This document shows positions 2,422 through 27,157 of a stretch of 64,000 nucleotides of DNA, piece by piece. The stretch is from Gammaproteobacteria bacterium (lineage in GTDB: Bacteria > Pseudomonadota > Gammaproteobacteria > Poriferisulfidales > Poriferisulfidaceae). The DNA is taken from NCBI GenBank assembly GCA_028819565.1, contig JAPPLD010000020.1:97319-161318 (forward strand). Direction: 5' to 3'. The translations under genes were made by a program, and so were the position numbers. The stretch's first letter is position 1; every line of letters begins with the position of its first letter. The notes under the pieces were generated by a model. That model was not told the DNA's origin. It searched no databases and saw nothing but the letters and a program-made list of their open reading frames with translations.

Positions 2422-2676
2422 ATGAAAGTTCCGACGCCGCTTCGGCGGGTAGTCGTGCTGATTGTCGGCGGCACAATACTACTGACCGGACTGGTCATGC
2501 TGGTCACGCCGGGGCCGGGGTTAGTGGTGATCCTGGTCGGACTGGCGACGCTGGCCAGCGAATTCCCCTGGGCTCGGCGCCTGCTCACCCGCGTCCGCGA
2601 GGAGGCGGGCACCCGAGGCCGGCAGGCCGGCAGTTGGTGGCGCCGCCTTCGGGGCCGGAACTCCTCCGGCTCGTGA
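2422..2676 (+). CDS. Small membrane protein of the PGPGW type
   Basis: This 84-residue protein has two hydrophobic stretches (about 9-26 and 31-45) joined by TPGPGL, then a basic, arginine-rich tail (RRLLTRVREEAGTRGRQ). This matches the small putative transmembrane proteins with a PGPGW motif; here the last position of the motif is Leu rather than Trp. The ATG lies three bases after the dcd stop, so it is probably the last gene of the mrp-dcd unit. Function is unknown; inner-membrane location is inferred from the hydrophobic segments. Confidence 0.7.
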   Translation: MKVPTPLRRVVVLIVGGTILLTGLVMLVTPGPGLVVILVGLATLASEFPWARRLLTRVREEAGTRGRQAGSWWRRLRGRNSSGS

Positions 2677-2680
2677 GAAC

Positions 2681-2727
2681 GGGACAAAAGAGACAGATAT
2701 AAATATATATGATATGGTAATCCATAT
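2681..2727 (+). promoter_or_regulatory. Promoter and palindromic operator of the first VapBC-type module
   Basis: An AT-rich stretch holds GGGACA (2681-2686), 17 bases, then TATATA (2704-2709). Just downstream is a perfect inverted repeat, ATATGG (2712-2717) TAAT CCATAT (2722-2727), overlapping the two candidate start codons of the antitoxin. Antitoxins of this kind usually repress their own promoter, so this is the likely operator. The implied leader is only about 10 bases. Confidence 0.5.
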
Positions 2728-2965
2728 GAAGACGACGCTCAACATCGACGAAACCGTAATGCGGCAACTGAAAAAAGAGGCCGCGCGGCGCGGGACGACC
2801 ATGTCTGCTCTGGTAGAAGCGGGGTTGAGGCGGGTCCTGGCCGGATCTGCCCACCCCAAAAGCAAGTCGAAGGCATCCTGGCGGCTGCCGACCTGGGATA
2901 GCGGCGGGTTCCGGGTCGATGTCGCCAATCGCGAAGAACTCTACCGGATATTGGATGAAGAATAG
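2726..2965 (+). CDS. Ribbon-helix-helix antitoxin (VapB-like)
   Basis: From the ATG at 2726 the product is 79 residues, opening MKTTLNIDETVMRQLKKEA, a ribbon-helix-helix DNA-binding segment of VapB-type antitoxins. The C-terminal half (SWRLPTWDSGGFRVDVANRE) would be the toxin-wrapping tail. An in-frame ATG at 2714 would add MVIH, but the predicted promoter places the transcript start near 2716, favouring 2726. Its stop codon is directly abutted by the PIN-domain toxin gene, the usual antitoxin-first order. It should bind both the palindrome at its own start and the toxin. Confidence 0.8.
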   Translation: MKTTLNIDETVMRQLKKEAARRGTTMSALVEAGLRRVLAGSAHPKSKSKASWRLPTWDSGGFRVDVANREELYRILDEE

Positions 2966-3400
2966 GTGCGGGTCTTCGACACGAACATCTTGGTCTATGC
3001 GGCGGACAGGAAATCGCCGTTTCACGGCCCATGCCATGCCAGCGTTTTGCAAGCCTGCGAAGATCCGGCTCCGGCTTTTCTCACCTGGAACGTTTGCTAC
3101 GAATTTCTTCGGGTCACCACGCACGCCCGTGCCTCAAAGTCCCCCTGGACATCTCAAGAGGCGTGGGGGTTTCTCAGGTTGTTGCTGGAATCGCCAGGGT
3201 TTGACCTGCTGCTGGCGACGTCTCGGCATGAAGCGGTGCTTGCACAAACCTTGGAGGAACTGCCGGACGTGCGTGGGAATCTGTGCCACGACCTGAATAC
3301 AGCGGTGTTGATGCGAGAGCACGGCATCAGCCAGATATACACTCGCGACACCGACTTTCATCGGTTCCCGTTCCTTGCCGTCATTGATCCTTTGCGATAA
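2966..3400 (+). CDS. PIN-domain ribonuclease toxin (VapC-like)
   Basis: The 144-residue product has the four acidic positions of PIN nucleases: FDTNILVYA (Asp 4), a Glu in CYEFLRV (near 46), Asp in CHDLNTAVL (near 109) and TRDTDFHRF (near 127). VapC toxins are magnesium-dependent RNases that often cut tRNA or rRNA. A GTG start at 2966 directly follows the antitoxin stop (2963-2965), so translation is probably coupled. The next gene, eno, has its own upstream region. The family call is strong; the RNA target cannot be read from the sequence. Confidence 0.85.
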   Translation: MRVFDTNILVYAADRKSPFHGPCHASVLQACEDPAPAFLTWNVCYEFLRVTTHARASKSPWTSQEAWGFLRLLLESPGFDLLLATSRHEAVLAQTLEELPDVRGNLCHDLNTAVLMREHGISQIYTRDTDFHRFPFLAVIDPLR

Positions 3401-4753
<1,353 letters not shown>

Positions 4754-5119: not shown

Positions 5120-5830
5120 ATGAAGGAAGTACATGCAGTCGTGGCGGGGGGCGGTTCCGGTTCCCGTTTCGGCAGCGCCAAGTGGGATGCGCCGCTTGGA
5201 GGACGGCGGATACTGGACTATGCACTGCGGCCGTTCGCGATGTGTCACCCGACGGTCCGGAGCATTACCTTGTTGTTGCCGGAGTCGGCGCTCGGCGGCG
5301 AACCGCCGCGGCTTCCGGCGGTGGTGGCATTCCGGGAATTGTCTGGTGGGGCGACCCGGGCCGACAGCGTTCTGCGCGGGCTGGAGGCCGTGCGGCAGGA
5401 TGCGGGGAAAGATGCTTGGGTGCTGGTGCACGATGTTGCACGGCCCTGCGTCTGGCAGTCGGATGTCGAAAAGCTGTTGAGCGAGGCTGGTGCGGACGGA
5501 GGCCTGCTGGCGGTGCCGGTGACCGACAGCGTCAAGCGTGCCGAGGGCGATCGAGTCGCGGCGAGCGAGGACCGGCAAGTTTTGTGGCGGGCGCAGACGC
5601 CGCAGTTGTTCGAACTGGCCGCGCTGCACCGTTGTTTGCGCCAGGCGCTGGAGGAGGGCGCGGAAGTGACCGACGAATCGCAGGCAATGGAACATGACGG
5701 CTACCGGCCGCGCCTCATTGCCGGTCGTGAGGATAATATAAAGGTGACATGGCCCGAAGACCTTGCTCGGGCCGAGTCGATTTTGCAACAGGATCCGGAT
5801 CATGCGTATTGGAGGGATTTATATACGTGA
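5120..5830 (+). CDS. ispD: 2-C-methyl-D-erythritol 4-phosphate cytidylyltransferase with a transposon-altered C-terminus
   Basis: IspD joins CTP to MEP in the non-mevalonate isoprenoid pathway. The 236-residue product keeps the nucleotide-binding glycine-rich start (AVVAGGGSGSRFG with a following Lys), VLVHDVARP, PVTDSVKRA, LWRAQTPQLF, VTDESQAME and DNIKVTWPEDL. ATG 5120 is preferred over GTG 5099, which overlaps the ftsB stop, because the conserved fold starts there. The last codons are not native: a 9-bp duplication at 5805-5813 marks an insertion, and the TGA at 5828-5830 lies in the left inverted repeat of the element. Without the insertion the frame would end ...HAYWTRL; now it ends ...HAYWRDLYT. 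The catalytic core is intact. Confidence 0.93.
   Translation: MKEVHAVVAGGGSGSRFGSAKWDAPLGGRRILDYALRPFAMCHPTVRSITLLLPESALGGEPPRLPAVVAFRELSGGATRADSVLRGLEAVRQDAGKDAWVLVHDVARPCVWQSDVEKLLSEAGADGGLLAVPVTDSVKRAEGDRVAASEDRQVLWRAQTPQLFELAALHRCLRQALEEGAEVTDESQAMEHDGYRPRLIAGREDNIKVTWPEDLARAESILQQDPDHAYWRDLYT
5805..5813. repeat. Left copy of 9-bp target-site duplication
   Basis: The bases CGTATTGGA occur here and again at 7155-7163, exactly bordering the element. Here they follow ATG (5802-5804), giving the codons Met-Arg-Ile-Gly, the normal beginning of ispF. This marks the insertion point inside the original ispF start. Confidence 0.85.
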
Positions 5831-5835
5831 CTCCC
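5814..5835 (+). repeat. Left terminal inverted repeat
   Basis: The sequence starts GGGATTTATATACG and ends TCCC. It pairs with the right repeat (7133-7154) at 18 of 22 positions. It carries the TGA (5828-5830) that now terminates ispD. Confidence 0.8.
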
Positions 5836-5857
5836 AAGTGGACCAAGCCTGGCTGGG

Positions 5858-5894
5858 GCATGCTATCATGCGTGTACGGGCGCTGTAACGCCCG
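5858..5894 (+). other. Two adjacent hairpins in the left end of the element
   Basis: GCATG (5858-5862) CTAT CATGC (5867-5871) and CGGGCG (5877-5882) CTGTAA CGCCCG (5889-5894) are perfect stem-loops lying between the left inverted repeat and tnpB. Subterminal hairpins are a feature of IS200/IS605 left ends, so they may be relics of the ancestral home of the tnpB gene. Confidence 0.55.
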
Positions 5895-5901
5895 CACCAA
5901 A

Positions 5902-5917
5902 GGACAAAGGAGTGTCC
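5902..5917 (+). promoter_or_regulatory. Ribosome binding site of tnpB held in a hairpin loop
   Basis: GGACA (5902-5906) and TGTCC (5913-5917) form a perfect 5-bp stem whose six-base loop is exactly AAGGAG (5907-5912), the Shine-Dalgarno sequence. The tnpB ATG follows at 5923. Presentation in a loop could either expose the site or limit access; the sequence cannot tell which. Confidence 0.6.
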
Positions 5918-5922
5918 ACCGC

Positions 5923-7128
5923 ATGGCGGACTGTACCGAGTGTCGTTCTGTCGTCTTCCGGTTGCACCCCGGAAGCCGAGCCAAACATAATCTTCTGATC
6001 CAGACCGCCGGTGCCTGCCGCTGGCTCTGGAACGCCATGCTTGAAGAGAACCGGCGCGCGAACGAGGAACACATCCTGACCGGACGGCCCCGGCCCTCGG
6101 TCTCGTTCCAGTCGATGGGCGTGGCGTTCACCCAACTGCGGCGCCAGACGCCGTGGTTGCAGGCATTGCCTTATGCGCCGGTCCGGTACCTCCTGAGGTA
6201 TCAGGCGGACGCCTGGAAACGGGCATTCAAGCGCGGCGGCTTTCCGAAGTTTCATGCGCGTCGGGGCGACGACAGTTTCACGATCCCACAGGATGTGAGG
6301 ATCACCGGCGAGTATCTGCATATTCCGAAGATCGGCCTGTGCCGCCTGTCGCGGCGTGGCGGCAACCCCTACGTGGATTGCCCGCCGGTGAAGGCGGTCG
6401 TGAAGCGGTCGCTGGGTCGCTGGGGGTGCGTGGTGGTGTACCGGGTGCCGGTTGAGCGTCAGGATAATGGGTTGGCCTTGGGCGTGGATATGAACTGTGG
6501 GCAGGTGGCGACAAGCACGGGAGAGATTCTGCCCCAGCCGGATCTAACCCGGCTGGAGGCGCGCAGGAAGCGTTACCAGCGGCAGGTGGCGCGACGCAAG
6601 AAGGGATCGAATCGGCGTGCGCTGTCCCGCCATCGGATGGCTAAGACGCAGCGCAAAATTGCGGCCATCCGGCACGATTGGCGCCATCAAGCCAGCCGTA
6701 CGCTGGCCAATACGGCCGGACATATCGTGATCGAAGACCTAAAAGTCAAGGCGATGACACGCTCGGCCAGAGGCACGGTCGAGGATCCGGGTCAGAACGT
6801 CCGGCAGATGGCAGGGCTGAACCGGGAGATCCGTAATACCGGCTGGGGTGCGTTGCGGCGGATGATTGAGTATAAGGCGGTGGAAGTCGAGACGGTGAAC
6901 CCGGCCTACACCAGCCAGGCCTGCCACCGGTGCGGGCACATCGACAAGGACAATAGAAAGGAACAATCGACCTTCGAGTGCACCGCTTGCGGGTACGCGG
7001 GCAACGCGGACGTCAACGCCGCGTTGAATATCTTGGCCTCGGGGACTGGGGCGACTGGACGGCGAGGGGCGTGGGCTTTGGCCCCCCCGATGAACCGTCA
7101 AAATGTATACACAAACCTCGCGGCTTGA
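5923..7128 (+). CDS. tnpB: TnpB-family RNA-guided nuclease (IS605 OrfB-like)
   Basis: TnpB proteins are RNA-guided DNA endonucleases related to Cas12. The 401-residue product has the N-terminal fold start VVFRLHPGSRAKHNLLIQT, a central basic stretch, and a RuvC-like nuclease with all three acidic positions: GVDMNCG (Asp), VIEDLKVKAM (Glu) and GNADVNAALN (Asp). A zinc ribbon CHRCG...CTACG lies between the last two. ATG 5923 is chosen for its Shine-Dalgarno at 5907-5912. Length is typical and the catalytic residues are intact, so it may be active. It lies inside a DDE-type element rather than an IS605. The guide RNA of such genes usually overlaps the 3-prime end of the gene; here that would be about 7030-7154, not verified. 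Confidence 0.9.
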   Translation: MADCTECRSVVFRLHPGSRAKHNLLIQTAGACRWLWNAMLEENRRANEEHILTGRPRPSVSFQSMGVAFTQLRRQTPWLQALPYAPVRYLLRYQADAWKRAFKRGGFPKFHARRGDDSFTIPQDVRITGEYLHIPKIGLCRLSRRGGNPYVDCPPVKAVVKRSLGRWGCVVVYRVPVERQDNGLALGVDMNCGQVATSTGEILPQPDLTRLEARRKRYQRQVARRKKGSNRRALSRHRMAKTQRKIAAIRHDWRHQASRTLANTAGHIVIEDLKVKAMTRSARGTVEDPGQNVRQMAGLNREIRNTGWGALRRMIEYKAVEVETVNPAYTSQACHRCGHIDKDNRKEQSTFECTACGYAGNADVNAALNILASGTGATGRRGAWALAPPMNRQNVYTNLAA

Positions 7129-9559: not shown

Positions 9560-10236
9560 AAGATACCCCCGCATTGCTGGCGCTCGAGACCTCTACCGAG
9601 ATCTGCTCGGCGGCCTTGGCGGCAGGCGGACGGATCGAAGAGCACACTCTGACGGTGCCGCGGGAGCACACCCGGCACATCCTGGGACAGGTGGACGAAC
9701 TGCTTGGCAAGGCGGGGATGACGGCCGGGAACCTTGCAGCGGTGGCGTTTGGCCGCGGCCCGGGGACGTTCACGGGGGTACGGGTAGCTACTGCCCTGGC
9801 GCAGGGGCTGGCGGTTGCCCATGGCCTGCCTTTGCTGCCGATCTCTTCGCTGGCTGCGCTGGCTTGGAGGGCTTGGCACGAACATCAGGTCTCGCCGGTG
9901 CTCGCGGTGATGGACGCACGGTTGGAAGAAGTCTACTGGGCAATGTTCGGGGTTGATGCCGAGGAAATTTCGGTCTTGCATCCGGAGTCGCTATCGACAC
10001 CAGTGGAACTACTCGCGCAATTGCCCTCGTTGCCCGGTGGCTGGCAGGGTGCCGGATCCGGTTGGGCTCTACCCGAGATGCAGCCGGGTGTTGAGCCGGG
10101 AATGGCCGTGGACTCCGGCCTGCGGCCGGATGCTCGATCGGTACTGGAGCTTGCGTTGCAGGATTTTCGAGCTGGCCGGGTTGCGGATTTCGAACAGGCC
10201 CAGCCGACCTATCTCCGGCATCCGGTGCGGTCGTGA
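9556..10236 (+). CDS. tsaB: tRNA threonylcarbamoyladenosine biosynthesis protein TsaB
   Basis: TsaB is the ASKHA-fold partner of TsaD and TsaE in making t6A at position 37 of ANN-decoding tRNAs. The 226-residue product has LLALETSTEICSAAL, the REHTRHILGQVDELL stretch, VAFGRGPGTFTGVRVATALAQGLA, and VMDARLEEVYWAMF, all characteristic. The ATG at 9556 overlaps the helicase stop (ATGA), indicating translational coupling. The downstream VOC gene overlaps its stop in the same way. Confidence 0.94.
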   Translation: MKDTPALLALETSTEICSAALAAGGRIEEHTLTVPREHTRHILGQVDELLGKAGMTAGNLAAVAFGRGPGTFTGVRVATALAQGLAVAHGLPLLPISSLAALAWRAWHEHQVSPVLAVMDARLEEVYWAMFGVDAEEISVLHPESLSTPVELLAQLPSLPGGWQGAGSGWALPEMQPGVEPGMAVDSGLRPDARSVLELALQDFRAGRVADFEQAQPTYLRHPVRS

Positions 10237-10667
10237 GCGAGTCGCGTCCGCGGTTTCATCTGGCAATTGGAGTCGATGACCTGTCCGCGGCGGAAGCCTT
10301 CTATGCTGGGGTCCTGCAGTGCCGCATCGGGCGCGCGTCCGAGAAATGGATCGACTTCGATCTTATGGGGCACCAGGTCACGGCACACCACTGTGACACG
10401 ACTCGGGAAGAGGCCCGCAACCCGGTTGACGGAAAGTCTATCGCGGTTCCCCATTTCGGACTGATCTTGGAATGGGAGCAGTGGGAAATTCTAGTGGAAC
10501 GCCTCCGGGTCTGCGGAGCGGCGTTCGATTTGGAACCGACTGTCCGCTTCCAGGGAGAAGTCGGAGAACAGGCAACCGTGTTCGTGCGCGACCCGGCTGG
10601 CAACGTGCTTGAGTTCAAGGCATTTCGAAATCCGGATCAGGTGTTTGCCCGGCACTTGGACAAATAA
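10233..10667 (+). CDS. VOC/glyoxalase-fold protein
   Basis: The 144-residue protein has the paired beta-alpha-beta-beta-beta layout of the vicinal oxygen chelate superfamily: FHLAIGVDDLSAAEAFYAGVLQCRIG in the first half, and a second half ending in TVFVRDPAGNVLEFKAF. The metal-ligand pattern His (about 9), His or Glu in the middle, and Glu near the end is compatible with a metal-binding dioxygenase, lyase or isomerase, but the substrate cannot be assigned. The GTG start at 10233 overlaps the tsaB stop. It is the last gene before an 840-base region with no credible gene. Confidence 0.8.
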   Translation: MSESRPRFHLAIGVDDLSAAEAFYAGVLQCRIGRASEKWIDFDLMGHQVTAHHCDTTREEARNPVDGKSIAVPHFGLILEWEQWEILVERLRVCGAAFDLEPTVRFQGEVGEQATVFVRDPAGNVLEFKAFRNPDQVFARHLDK

Positions 10668-10709
10668 AATCATTCTCTTACCTGGTGACTGACAAGCTGG
10701 GCGCACAAG

Positions 10710-10739
10710 TTGCACGCCCATTCTCCCCCATGCTACAAT
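10710..10739 (+). promoter_or_regulatory. Predicted sigma-70 promoter of the structured region
   Basis: TTGCAC (10710-10715), an 18-base spacer and TACAAT (10734-10739) make a good match to the consensus, predicting a transcript start near 10746. No gene with a ribosome binding site follows, which points to a noncoding product. Confidence 0.6.
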
Positions 10740-10744
10740 CAAAT

Positions 10745-10822
10745 TGCCCAGTTTATCTCCCATCAGTCACTGAAAGGATGGTGCGATGCTGTCTGGGCAT
10801 GTTGGCGAGGGTTGCCCTTTTT
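10745..10822 (+). promoter_or_regulatory. Attenuator-like pair of mutually exclusive hairpins
   Basis: CTGGGCA (10793-10799) can pair with the upstream TGCCCAG (10745-10751) or, through GGGCA (10795-10799), with the downstream TGCCC (10813-10817). The second hairpin is followed directly by TTTTT (10818-10822), the form of an intrinsic terminator. The two structures exclude each other. The upstream arm sits at the predicted transcript start, so whether it is fully transcribed is uncertain. Confidence 0.4.
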
Positions 10823-11119
10823 GGCTTTATTCCTGCGGCAAATTTTCCTGTCCCGCCTCTTTTCCTGCCGAGCCATTTCGGTGGGTTGGAAGCCTGCTGG
10901 GCCTGAATTCAGACGTTCCCAGTTCGGGGTCGCGGCGGTTTTGCTCCGGCAAAGCCGTCGCGGATTCCAATGGTTTCTCTCTTAAGAACCGCATTCAGGT
11001 CCAAGCACCAACCTCCTTTCATTCTGCCTTGTACCAAATGGGGCAGACCCGAAGCTTAGCCTGCTCGATTCGCAGCTTGGTTGCATGGTCTTTCCCGGTG
11101 TTTTGGAGAAAAGGTAAAT

Positions 11120-11185
11120 GTCCCACCCGCCGAGCGTTTAGGCACAGAACTGGACTATAGCCTTAACGATTCCGGCGGGTGAGAC
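11120..11185 (+). repeat. Long imperfect inverted repeat
   Basis: Bases 11120-11132 pair with 11173-11185 at 12 of 13 positions, and 11135-11143 with 11160-11168 at 8 of 9, leaving a 16-base loop. It could be an RNA hairpin or a DNA element; no coding frame needs it. Confidence 0.6.
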
Positions 11186-11196
11186 ACTCTCCCCAG

Positions 11197-11218
11197 TGCG
11201 TCGTCTTTAGACGACGCA
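11197..11218. repeat. Perfect 22-bp palindrome
   Basis: TGCGTCGTCT (11197-11206), TT, AGACGACGCA (11209-11218). It is not followed by a T-run on the plus strand, so it is not an ordinary intrinsic terminator. It could end or cap a structured RNA, or be a protein-binding site. Confidence 0.75.
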
Positions 11219-11509
11219 ATGAATACAAAGTTTGCGCCGATGCGCGGTTCGAAATTGGCGAGGCACTGAATTCTCAGGCAACGCCATGCCGGCATAGATC
11301 GGGCGGGTTGGAACTGTCGCGACACTTGTTTATCTCTTGGTAGCTCCATGCTCCGATTCTACTGCGGATGAAGCATTTGGCGAAATATAATCGGGTCTGA
11401 CAGCAAGAATCCGTGTTCCGAGTCGACAGGTTGAAAACGGCCAGGATTCGTGCTCCTTTCTTTTGACATAATGCAGGGATGGAGACGGTGAGGTGCGGCG
11501 TTTATTGGG

Positions 11510-26411: not shown

Positions 26412-26432
26412 GAGGGCGGCGAGACTCTGGAG

Positions 26433-26834
26433 TCAGTGGTGCTCGGTGGGTGCGAGGACCAGACCGAAGCGCTCGAATTTCTGGAAGTCTTTCAGGTTCG
26501 CGGTGGCGATGCGGGCGCGCTTCGTGATGGCGGTGGCGGCGATCATGCAGTCTCTTAACATACTGCGACGACGTCCTGTCTCGTTGAACAATCGTGCGGA
26601 CAGGGACGCCATCTCTTCCGTGAAATCGACCCGGTTGGGCACGACCTGGTTAGCGAGTGAAAGGTCCTCGTCCGTTTCCGGCCCGCCGCACAGGTATTCC
26701 GCCCATGCCACGGTGCTCATGCTCAAGACCTCTCCGGAACGCAGCCACGACTTGATCTTTTCGCTTTCATGAGAGCCCGCGTGGACAGCGCGGGCTAGGA
26801 AACTGGTGTCCAGATGGATTATTTGGGTATCCAT
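26433..26834 (-). CDS. PIN-domain ribonuclease toxin of the second antitoxin/toxin pair
   Basis: The 133-residue product has PIN acidic positions in IHLDTSFLARAV (Asp 9), VAWAEYLCG (Glu near 46), LRDCMIAATA (Asp near 95) and a C-terminal IATANLKDFQKF, where Asn occupies a position often acidic. Four such residues bind the metal in PIN RNases. Its start overlaps the end of the upstream antitoxin gene by 16 bases, so translation should be coupled. It is convergent with secF, from which it is separated by 21 bases. Confidence 0.82.
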   Translation of the reverse strand: MDTQIIHLDTSFLARAVHAGSHESEKIKSWLRSGEVLSMSTVAWAEYLCGGPETDEDLSLANQVVPNRVDFTEEMASLSARLFNETGRRRSMLRDCMIAATAITKRARIATANLKDFQKFERFGLVLAPTEHH

Positions 26835-27106
26835 CTCAGGCTCCTTCTAGAACTGGCCCGGCGTTCTTCCCGTATTTCCTTCACCCATTTCTCGGTATCC
26901 ACGCCTGCCTCGGCCATCCGCCTCTGCAATTCTTCCAGTGCCGCGATCGCGTCTTCGCAGTTGCGCAGGGTCTGTTCCGCAACCCGGTCGATGCTGCGCC
27001 GCAGGGCCTCGGACTTGGACGTGCTCCAGTGTTCCGCCAAGCGGTCCAGTTTTTGCACGGTCTCGACGTCGAAAGTGTAGGTCGAGCGGATTGTCATCTT
27101 GGCCAT
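26819..27106 (-). CDS. Ribbon-helix-helix antitoxin of the second pair
   Basis: The 95-residue product begins MAKMTIRSTYTFDVETVQKLDRLAEHW and continues SKSEALRRSIDRVAEQ, a ribbon-helix-helix DNA-binding domain with a leading beta strand. The charged second half would bind the toxin. The start codon at 27106 coincides with the predicted transcription start from the promoter at 27113-27141, so the mRNA may be leaderless; an internal ATG at 27097 is the alternative. It likely represses itself through the palindrome at 27103-27124. Confidence 0.78.
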   Translation of the reverse strand: MAKMTIRSTYTFDVETVQKLDRLAEHWSTSKSEALRRSIDRVAEQTLRNCEDAIAALEELQRRMAEAGVDTEKWVKEIREERRASSRRSLRWIPK

Positions 27107-27141
27107 GCCAGTAGTATGGCATGGTCATACCATCATGTCAA
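27103..27141 (-). promoter_or_regulatory. Strong promoter with overlapping palindromic operators
   Basis: On the minus strand TTGACA (27141-27136), 17 bases and CATACT (27118-27113) form a near-consensus promoter. A perfect inverted repeat CCATGCCA (27103-27110) / TGGCATGG (27117-27124) covers the -10 and the start codon, and a second one, ATGGT (27121-27125) CAT ACCAT (27129-27133), lies in the spacer. This is the expected layout of an autoregulated antitoxin operon. Confidence 0.65.
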
Positions 27142-27157
27142 ACAAGGTGGAATCCGC

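Follow-up and report, generated by a model that had tools for sequence, protein, structure and literature searches.

The gap between a VOC gene and mutL in a sponge symbiont of the genus Candidatus Porisulfidus may hold a lineage-restricted, structured non-coding locus, shared by two sister genomes, built partly from the remains of a surface beta-barrel gene and a candidate for an RNA, a reading to which we give a probability of about 0.4. The locus folds far better than expected by chance, contains an island conserved beyond its flanks, has a non-coding appearance and is derived from a barrel gene in its 3' part. An RNA function is plausible; its transcription, strand, ends and any function we infer. 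The window, that is, the whole stretch of 64,000 nucleotides analyzed, is G000:C31:97319-161318, G000 being the window's own genome. The features of the locus are as follows.

10233-10667: VOC gene.
10668-11462, no strand: whole extra stretch, from the VOC gene to the region upstream of mutL; only about 90-100 bp lie there in genomes G004 and G005.
10711-10739, + strand: promoter-like site, with TTGCAC, a spacing of 17-18 nt and the extended -10 element TGCTACAAT.
10737-11200, no strand: conserved island, with 21 differences in 464 positions from the sister genome G002 against 38 in 330 in the flanks.
10786-11160, + strand: 124-codon open frame, the longest in the gap, with an AAAGGA site; open in both genomes and judged non-coding.
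10884-11013, + strand preferred: module A.
10884-10889 and 10895-10908 with 10993-11002 and 11004-11013: closing helix of module A, 20 bp.
10932-10944 with 10949-10961: hairpin of module A, 13 bp.
10962-10987: variable, unpaired segment within module A, with 9 differences in 26 nt from G002.
11084-11225, - strand preferred: module B.
11084-11295, + strand: barrel-gene relic, the C-terminal part of a surface beta-barrel gene with its frame broken, reading ...AERLGTEL[D/G]YSLNDSGG*...DAR[F/L]EIGEAL...
11119-11187, - strand: long hairpin of module B that lies within the relic, with an 18-bp lower stem that has four G-U pairs on the - strand.
11197-11218, no strand: perfect 9-bp hairpin, TGCGTCGTC TTTA GACGACGCA.

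The VOC stop (10667) and the mutL ATG (11510) were found to be separated by 842 bp, which confirms the gene-free region of about 840 bases described in the original prediction. None of the nine translated open stretches of this gap matched Pfam or NCBIfam. The full extra stretch was kept at the same place, with 93% identity, in G002 (Candidatus Porisulfidus sp. TsSOB, from a sponge), and a scan of the genome collection with the open frame of the island also returned the contig of this genome, which places the window in the same genus. The region was thus present in one of the five other Candidatus Porisulfidus genomes. In G004 and G005, the VOC gene ends at 2696 and 2661 and mutL starts at 2795 and 2748 (loci L017 and L018, respectively), while G001 and G003 were found to have other genes upstream of mutL.

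We compared the two sister genomes across the gap and found that divergence was 4.5% in the island and 11-13% in the flanks (11.5% pooled; Fisher P 3e-4, P values being somewhat optimistic because the limits of the island were chosen once the data had been seen). Four-fold sites differed at 14.6% over the first 37 kb and at 19.4% over the 96 kb aligned. On the same contigs, divergence was mostly 6-36% in the other ordinary stretches between genes and 2-3% in those bearing tRNAs. The left edge of the island is at the -10 element, and its right edge lies close to the last hairpin. Conservation stops inside the barrel relic, where 3 out of 117 positions differ in 11084-11200 and 9 out of 95 in 11201-11295. 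Between module B and a conserved stretch beside mutL lie about 230 bp of unstructured, diverging sequence.

The differences between the two genomes were found to be placed unevenly with respect to the fold. Nine of the 21 island differences fall within the variable segment, and in module A all 66 paired positions were unchanged, whereas 9 of the 64 unpaired ones differed. When the same 25 substitutions were placed randomly, the observed consensus-fold energy was reached in 0 out of 160 trials on the + strand and 1 out of 160 on the - strand; changes of the same kinds put at random sites are more harmful to the fold than the real ones. Covariation amounted to one clear compensatory pair, from two closely related sequences: positions 11203 and 11212 of the perfect hairpin change from G-C to A-T in G002, and a palindrome such as this one can also be corrected by one mutational event.

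To characterize the fold, we compared the segment 10740-11230 with shuffled controls and obtained a z of -5.2 on the + strand and -4.2 on the - strand; a fold that beats dinucleotide shuffles is what is expected of structured non-coding RNAs in general. As background, 24 other 486-nt segments of the window reached a z of -2.4 at the lowest (a minimum that excludes one segment overlapping the island), and twelve intact barrel-gene segments gave -1.6 to +0.4. Module A had a z of -5.8 on the + strand and -2.2 on the - strand. Module B, composed of a 69-nt hairpin and the perfect 9-bp hairpin, had -8.2 on the - strand and -5.2 on the + strand. In G002, modules A and B on their better strands reached -5.3 and -7.3, respectively. 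The sequence from module B to mutL (11226-11509) was unstructured (z +0.8), and no U tract follows the last hairpin (11197-11218).

Both long-range pairings named in the original prediction are real: 10898-10908 with 10993-11003 is an inverted repeat (I6), and 10884-10889 with 11008-11013 is GGTTGG with CCAACC. The outer, all-enclosing helices of the minimum-energy fold of the window's genome should not be relied upon, because they are not common to the fold of G002. The proposal that G-U pairs favour RNA fits the + strand in module A, but in the 3' hairpins such pairs point to the - strand. The evidence on strand is therefore mixed, since module A folds best on the + strand and the 3' hairpins on the - strand; the extended -10 element sides with module A. 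We also observed that 11007-11022 (CACCAACCTCCTTTCA), which resembles the 3' end of 16S rRNA (anti-Shine-Dalgarno), forms an 8-bp pairing with TGAAAGGA (10771-10778), the site that precedes the 124-codon frame.

A good sigma-70 promoter had been proposed at the start of the region. Its extended -10 element does stand out: TGCTACAAT at 10731-10739 is aligned with TGCTAGAAT in G002, giving TGCTA[C/G]AAT in the two genomes at the left edge of the island. The '-35' TTGCAC, however, matches the consensus at only 3 out of 6 positions, and a consensus promoter scan did not list the site at 10711-10739 for this reason.

We searched for relatives and for known RNA families. The absence of a known RNA core was borne out against Rfam, where curated and permissive thresholds yielded no family and the covariance models gave only a chance match to mir-1266 (19.6 of 70 bits). 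A homology search had been proposed as a check, and it did find a relative whose changes spare the fold, but only in G002. This was the sole relative found at the DNA level in 39 genomes, with two covariance models in 369 genomes of the class, and with peptide patterns in the genome and viral collections. Neither phages and plasmids nor, with DNA patterns, viral contigs held a relative. Covariance matches in G183 and G312 were short, partial and at chance level. The locus resembles orphan structured non-coding RNA candidates without an Rfam family in that it is intergenic, has a non-random fold, is conserved beyond its flanks and has a promoter-like left edge; unlike them, it occurs in two genomes only, favours no single strand and has a 3' part taken from a protein gene. 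6S RNA, RNase P RNA and tmRNA are likewise large folded bacterial RNAs, and none of them matched the locus. A missing housekeeping RNA was rejected as an identity, as RNase P RNA, tmRNA and a 6S-like RNA are found elsewhere in the genome. The 6S-like RNA (L022, G000:C31:31520-31699) scored 39.1 bits (Rfam cut-off 46.4), with an E value of 1e-6 in one genome.

One weak covariance-model match, in G003:C54, was rejected as a distant RNA relative since it falls within a barrel gene that is broken; the relic in the window was recognized from it. The broken G003 gene translates to RLEAELGYGLSGPGGRG, a motif found close to the C-terminus in a family of large surface proteins of the genus that have a barrel-like tail; the relic reads AERLGTELDYSLNDSGG in the window and AERLGTELGYSLNDSGG in G002, each followed by a stop. 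When the barrel tail of G003:C90 was searched against twelve genomes, G002:C20:26209-26322 was listed (E 0.0027, with one TGA). A frameshift-aware alignment spans 11084-11268 and scores 88 for G002 (z 8.4) and 67 for the window's genome (z 4.6), shuffles giving 41.9 +- 5.5 with a maximum of 62. Such an alignment was needed, as a generic barrel profile HMM on six frames gave only E 0.06-0.3. DNA identity with the family is 77% over 48 nt. The frame damage, a TGA after NDSGG and a frameshift, is common to the two genomes, and the relic in G002 is nearer to the intact family, which fits further decay in the window's genome. In intact genes (G003:C90 and G003:C22), 11084-11295 aligns to the C-terminus through ELGYGL...GG...RLEIGEEL; the relic differs from them by its stop codon, frameshifts and divergence. 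Homology beyond shuffles together with shared damage identifies the 3' part of the locus, from 11084 onward, as a barrel-gene pseudogene, and the two 3' hairpins accordingly lie within what is left of a dead gene. The segment upstream (10737-11083) had no secure match to barrel genes (summed scores 275 in the window's genome and 244 in G002; null 233 +- 18).

The barrel family was named by its sequence pattern and one weak Calx-beta match, and no curated model for it was found. In G001, the place of the VOC gene is taken by an intact member of the family (L014:533-2989), a large gene with the weak Calx-beta match and a barrel tail; it is the immediate upstream neighbour of mutL and has the same orientation. 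The relic therefore likely descended from such a neighbour of mutL. At the corresponding place, intact barrel genes have a fold z of about 0, and simple inheritance therefore does not account for the strong fold. Surface-barrel genes form a family in the genus that includes several relics, and L044 (G003:C54), L075 and L076 represent another frame-broken member.

The closest competitor is that the locus is unselected debris, composed of a decaying barrel gene and the sequence 5' of it, with hairpins formed by chance or by template switching at quasi-palindromes and with low divergence that reflects local rate variation or recombination between the sister lineages. We regard this as a serious possibility, slightly below the RNA reading in rank. 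The frame-broken relic common to both genomes speaks for it, as do the opposite strand preferences of the two modules and an ordinary stretch of the same contig (38907-39491) with almost the same level of conservation (5.8%). In G003, inverted repeats with unrelated arms also occur at the homologous place in two further members of the family, as a mutational process would give. One is a perfect 13-bp repeat (GCCGTTGAGGCCG) that flanks the ELGYGL motif of an intact gene (L062, G003:C22, at about 1700-1760), where the background maximum in 150 nt is 11 bp; the other is a hairpin with different arms in the L044 relic (z -2.3/-3.1). Debris does not readily explain why conservation is limited to the folded island and ends at its edge within the same relic, why substitutions spare the fold, or why two modules with z of -5 to -8 occur in one gap. 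A plain pseudogene accounts for the 3' sequence but not for the coincidence of folding and constraint. A structured RNA accounts for that coincidence, although its strand is not settled and its covariation is shallow.

Other explanations have less in their favour. A cis-acting DNA or RNA element, whose hairpins insulate mutL as a bidirectional block or terminator or tune its expression, would suit the position directly upstream of mutL and the strong folding of module B on both strands. We consider it unlikely: in G004 and G005 mutL follows a short gap that lacks the region, the hairpins lack a U tract and are separated from the conserved stretch beside mutL by the diverging sequence described above, and module A would be superfluous. 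Still less probable is that a palindromic mobile element (MITE or REP-like) entered the gap between the two genes and left a remnant there. This would explain the inverted repeats and the presence in two genomes but absence in two others at the same gene pair, yet the locus is single-copy in both genomes, where MITE and REP elements are multi-copy, shows no convincing terminal inverted repeats or target duplication, and is unmatched in phages and plasmids. The least probable alternative is a small protein of 124 aa encoded by the open frame 10786-11160. Its start, stop and ribosome-binding site are kept in G002, and substitutions by codon position are 5/3/11, with 11 out of 19 on position 3 (P 0.024, uncorrected). 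Against it, codon statistics were -0.19 per codon, like out-of-frame sequence and not host-like, while real nearby genes scored +0.14 to +0.32. GC was flat by codon position, the composition was odd, and neither a family match nor a relative outside G002 was found.

We rank the RNA reading slightly ahead of unselected debris. The original claim of a large structured RNA keeps its folding, its conserved island, its fold-sparing changes, the lack of an Rfam family and the lack of a coding signal; what tells against it is that the 3' part is a broken barrel gene, that two genomes carry the locus, that the modules prefer opposite strands and that the outer fold is not kept. If the locus is an RNA, a putative stable non-coding transcript of about 450-480 nt would be made from the extended -10 element at 10731-10739, starting near 10746. 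Its folded core would be module A (10884-11013), the hairpins at 11119-11218 may form or protect its 3' end, and it might work in trans, as a regulatory RNA or a protein-binding one. A more specific version, which we hold to be rather unlikely, is that of a large structured RNA caught soon after birth, in which hairpins from the wreck of a surface gene are now selected as part of a conserved non-coding RNA in just these two symbionts.

Bacterial sRNAs that arose by exaptation are covered in a review by Jose, Gardner and Barquist (2019), as cited in PMC8687705. Like the exapted sRNAs in this account, the locus is non-coding sequence conserved inside a former coding sequence; it may have been taken up as an RNA. 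The origin of new bacterial non-coding RNAs is an open question, and cases in which a protein-coding origin is still readable beside new structure and constraint would be valuable. If transcribed, the locus would be such a case of RNA birth from coding sequence. If not, it would be a warning that a dead gene can hold hairpins with z of -5 to -8 and mimic a structured RNA.

Other differences between the two sister genomes were observed in the window. A TnpB-like (IS605 family) open frame at 5749-7128, between ispD and ispF, is inserted in the window's genome and missing from G002, where the flanks of the insertion join with a 9-base overlap in the alignment. The segments 342-685, 2659-3457 and 26413-27157 are also present in the window's genome and missing from G002, and the last of these contains two short frames on the minus strand whose codon scores are good.
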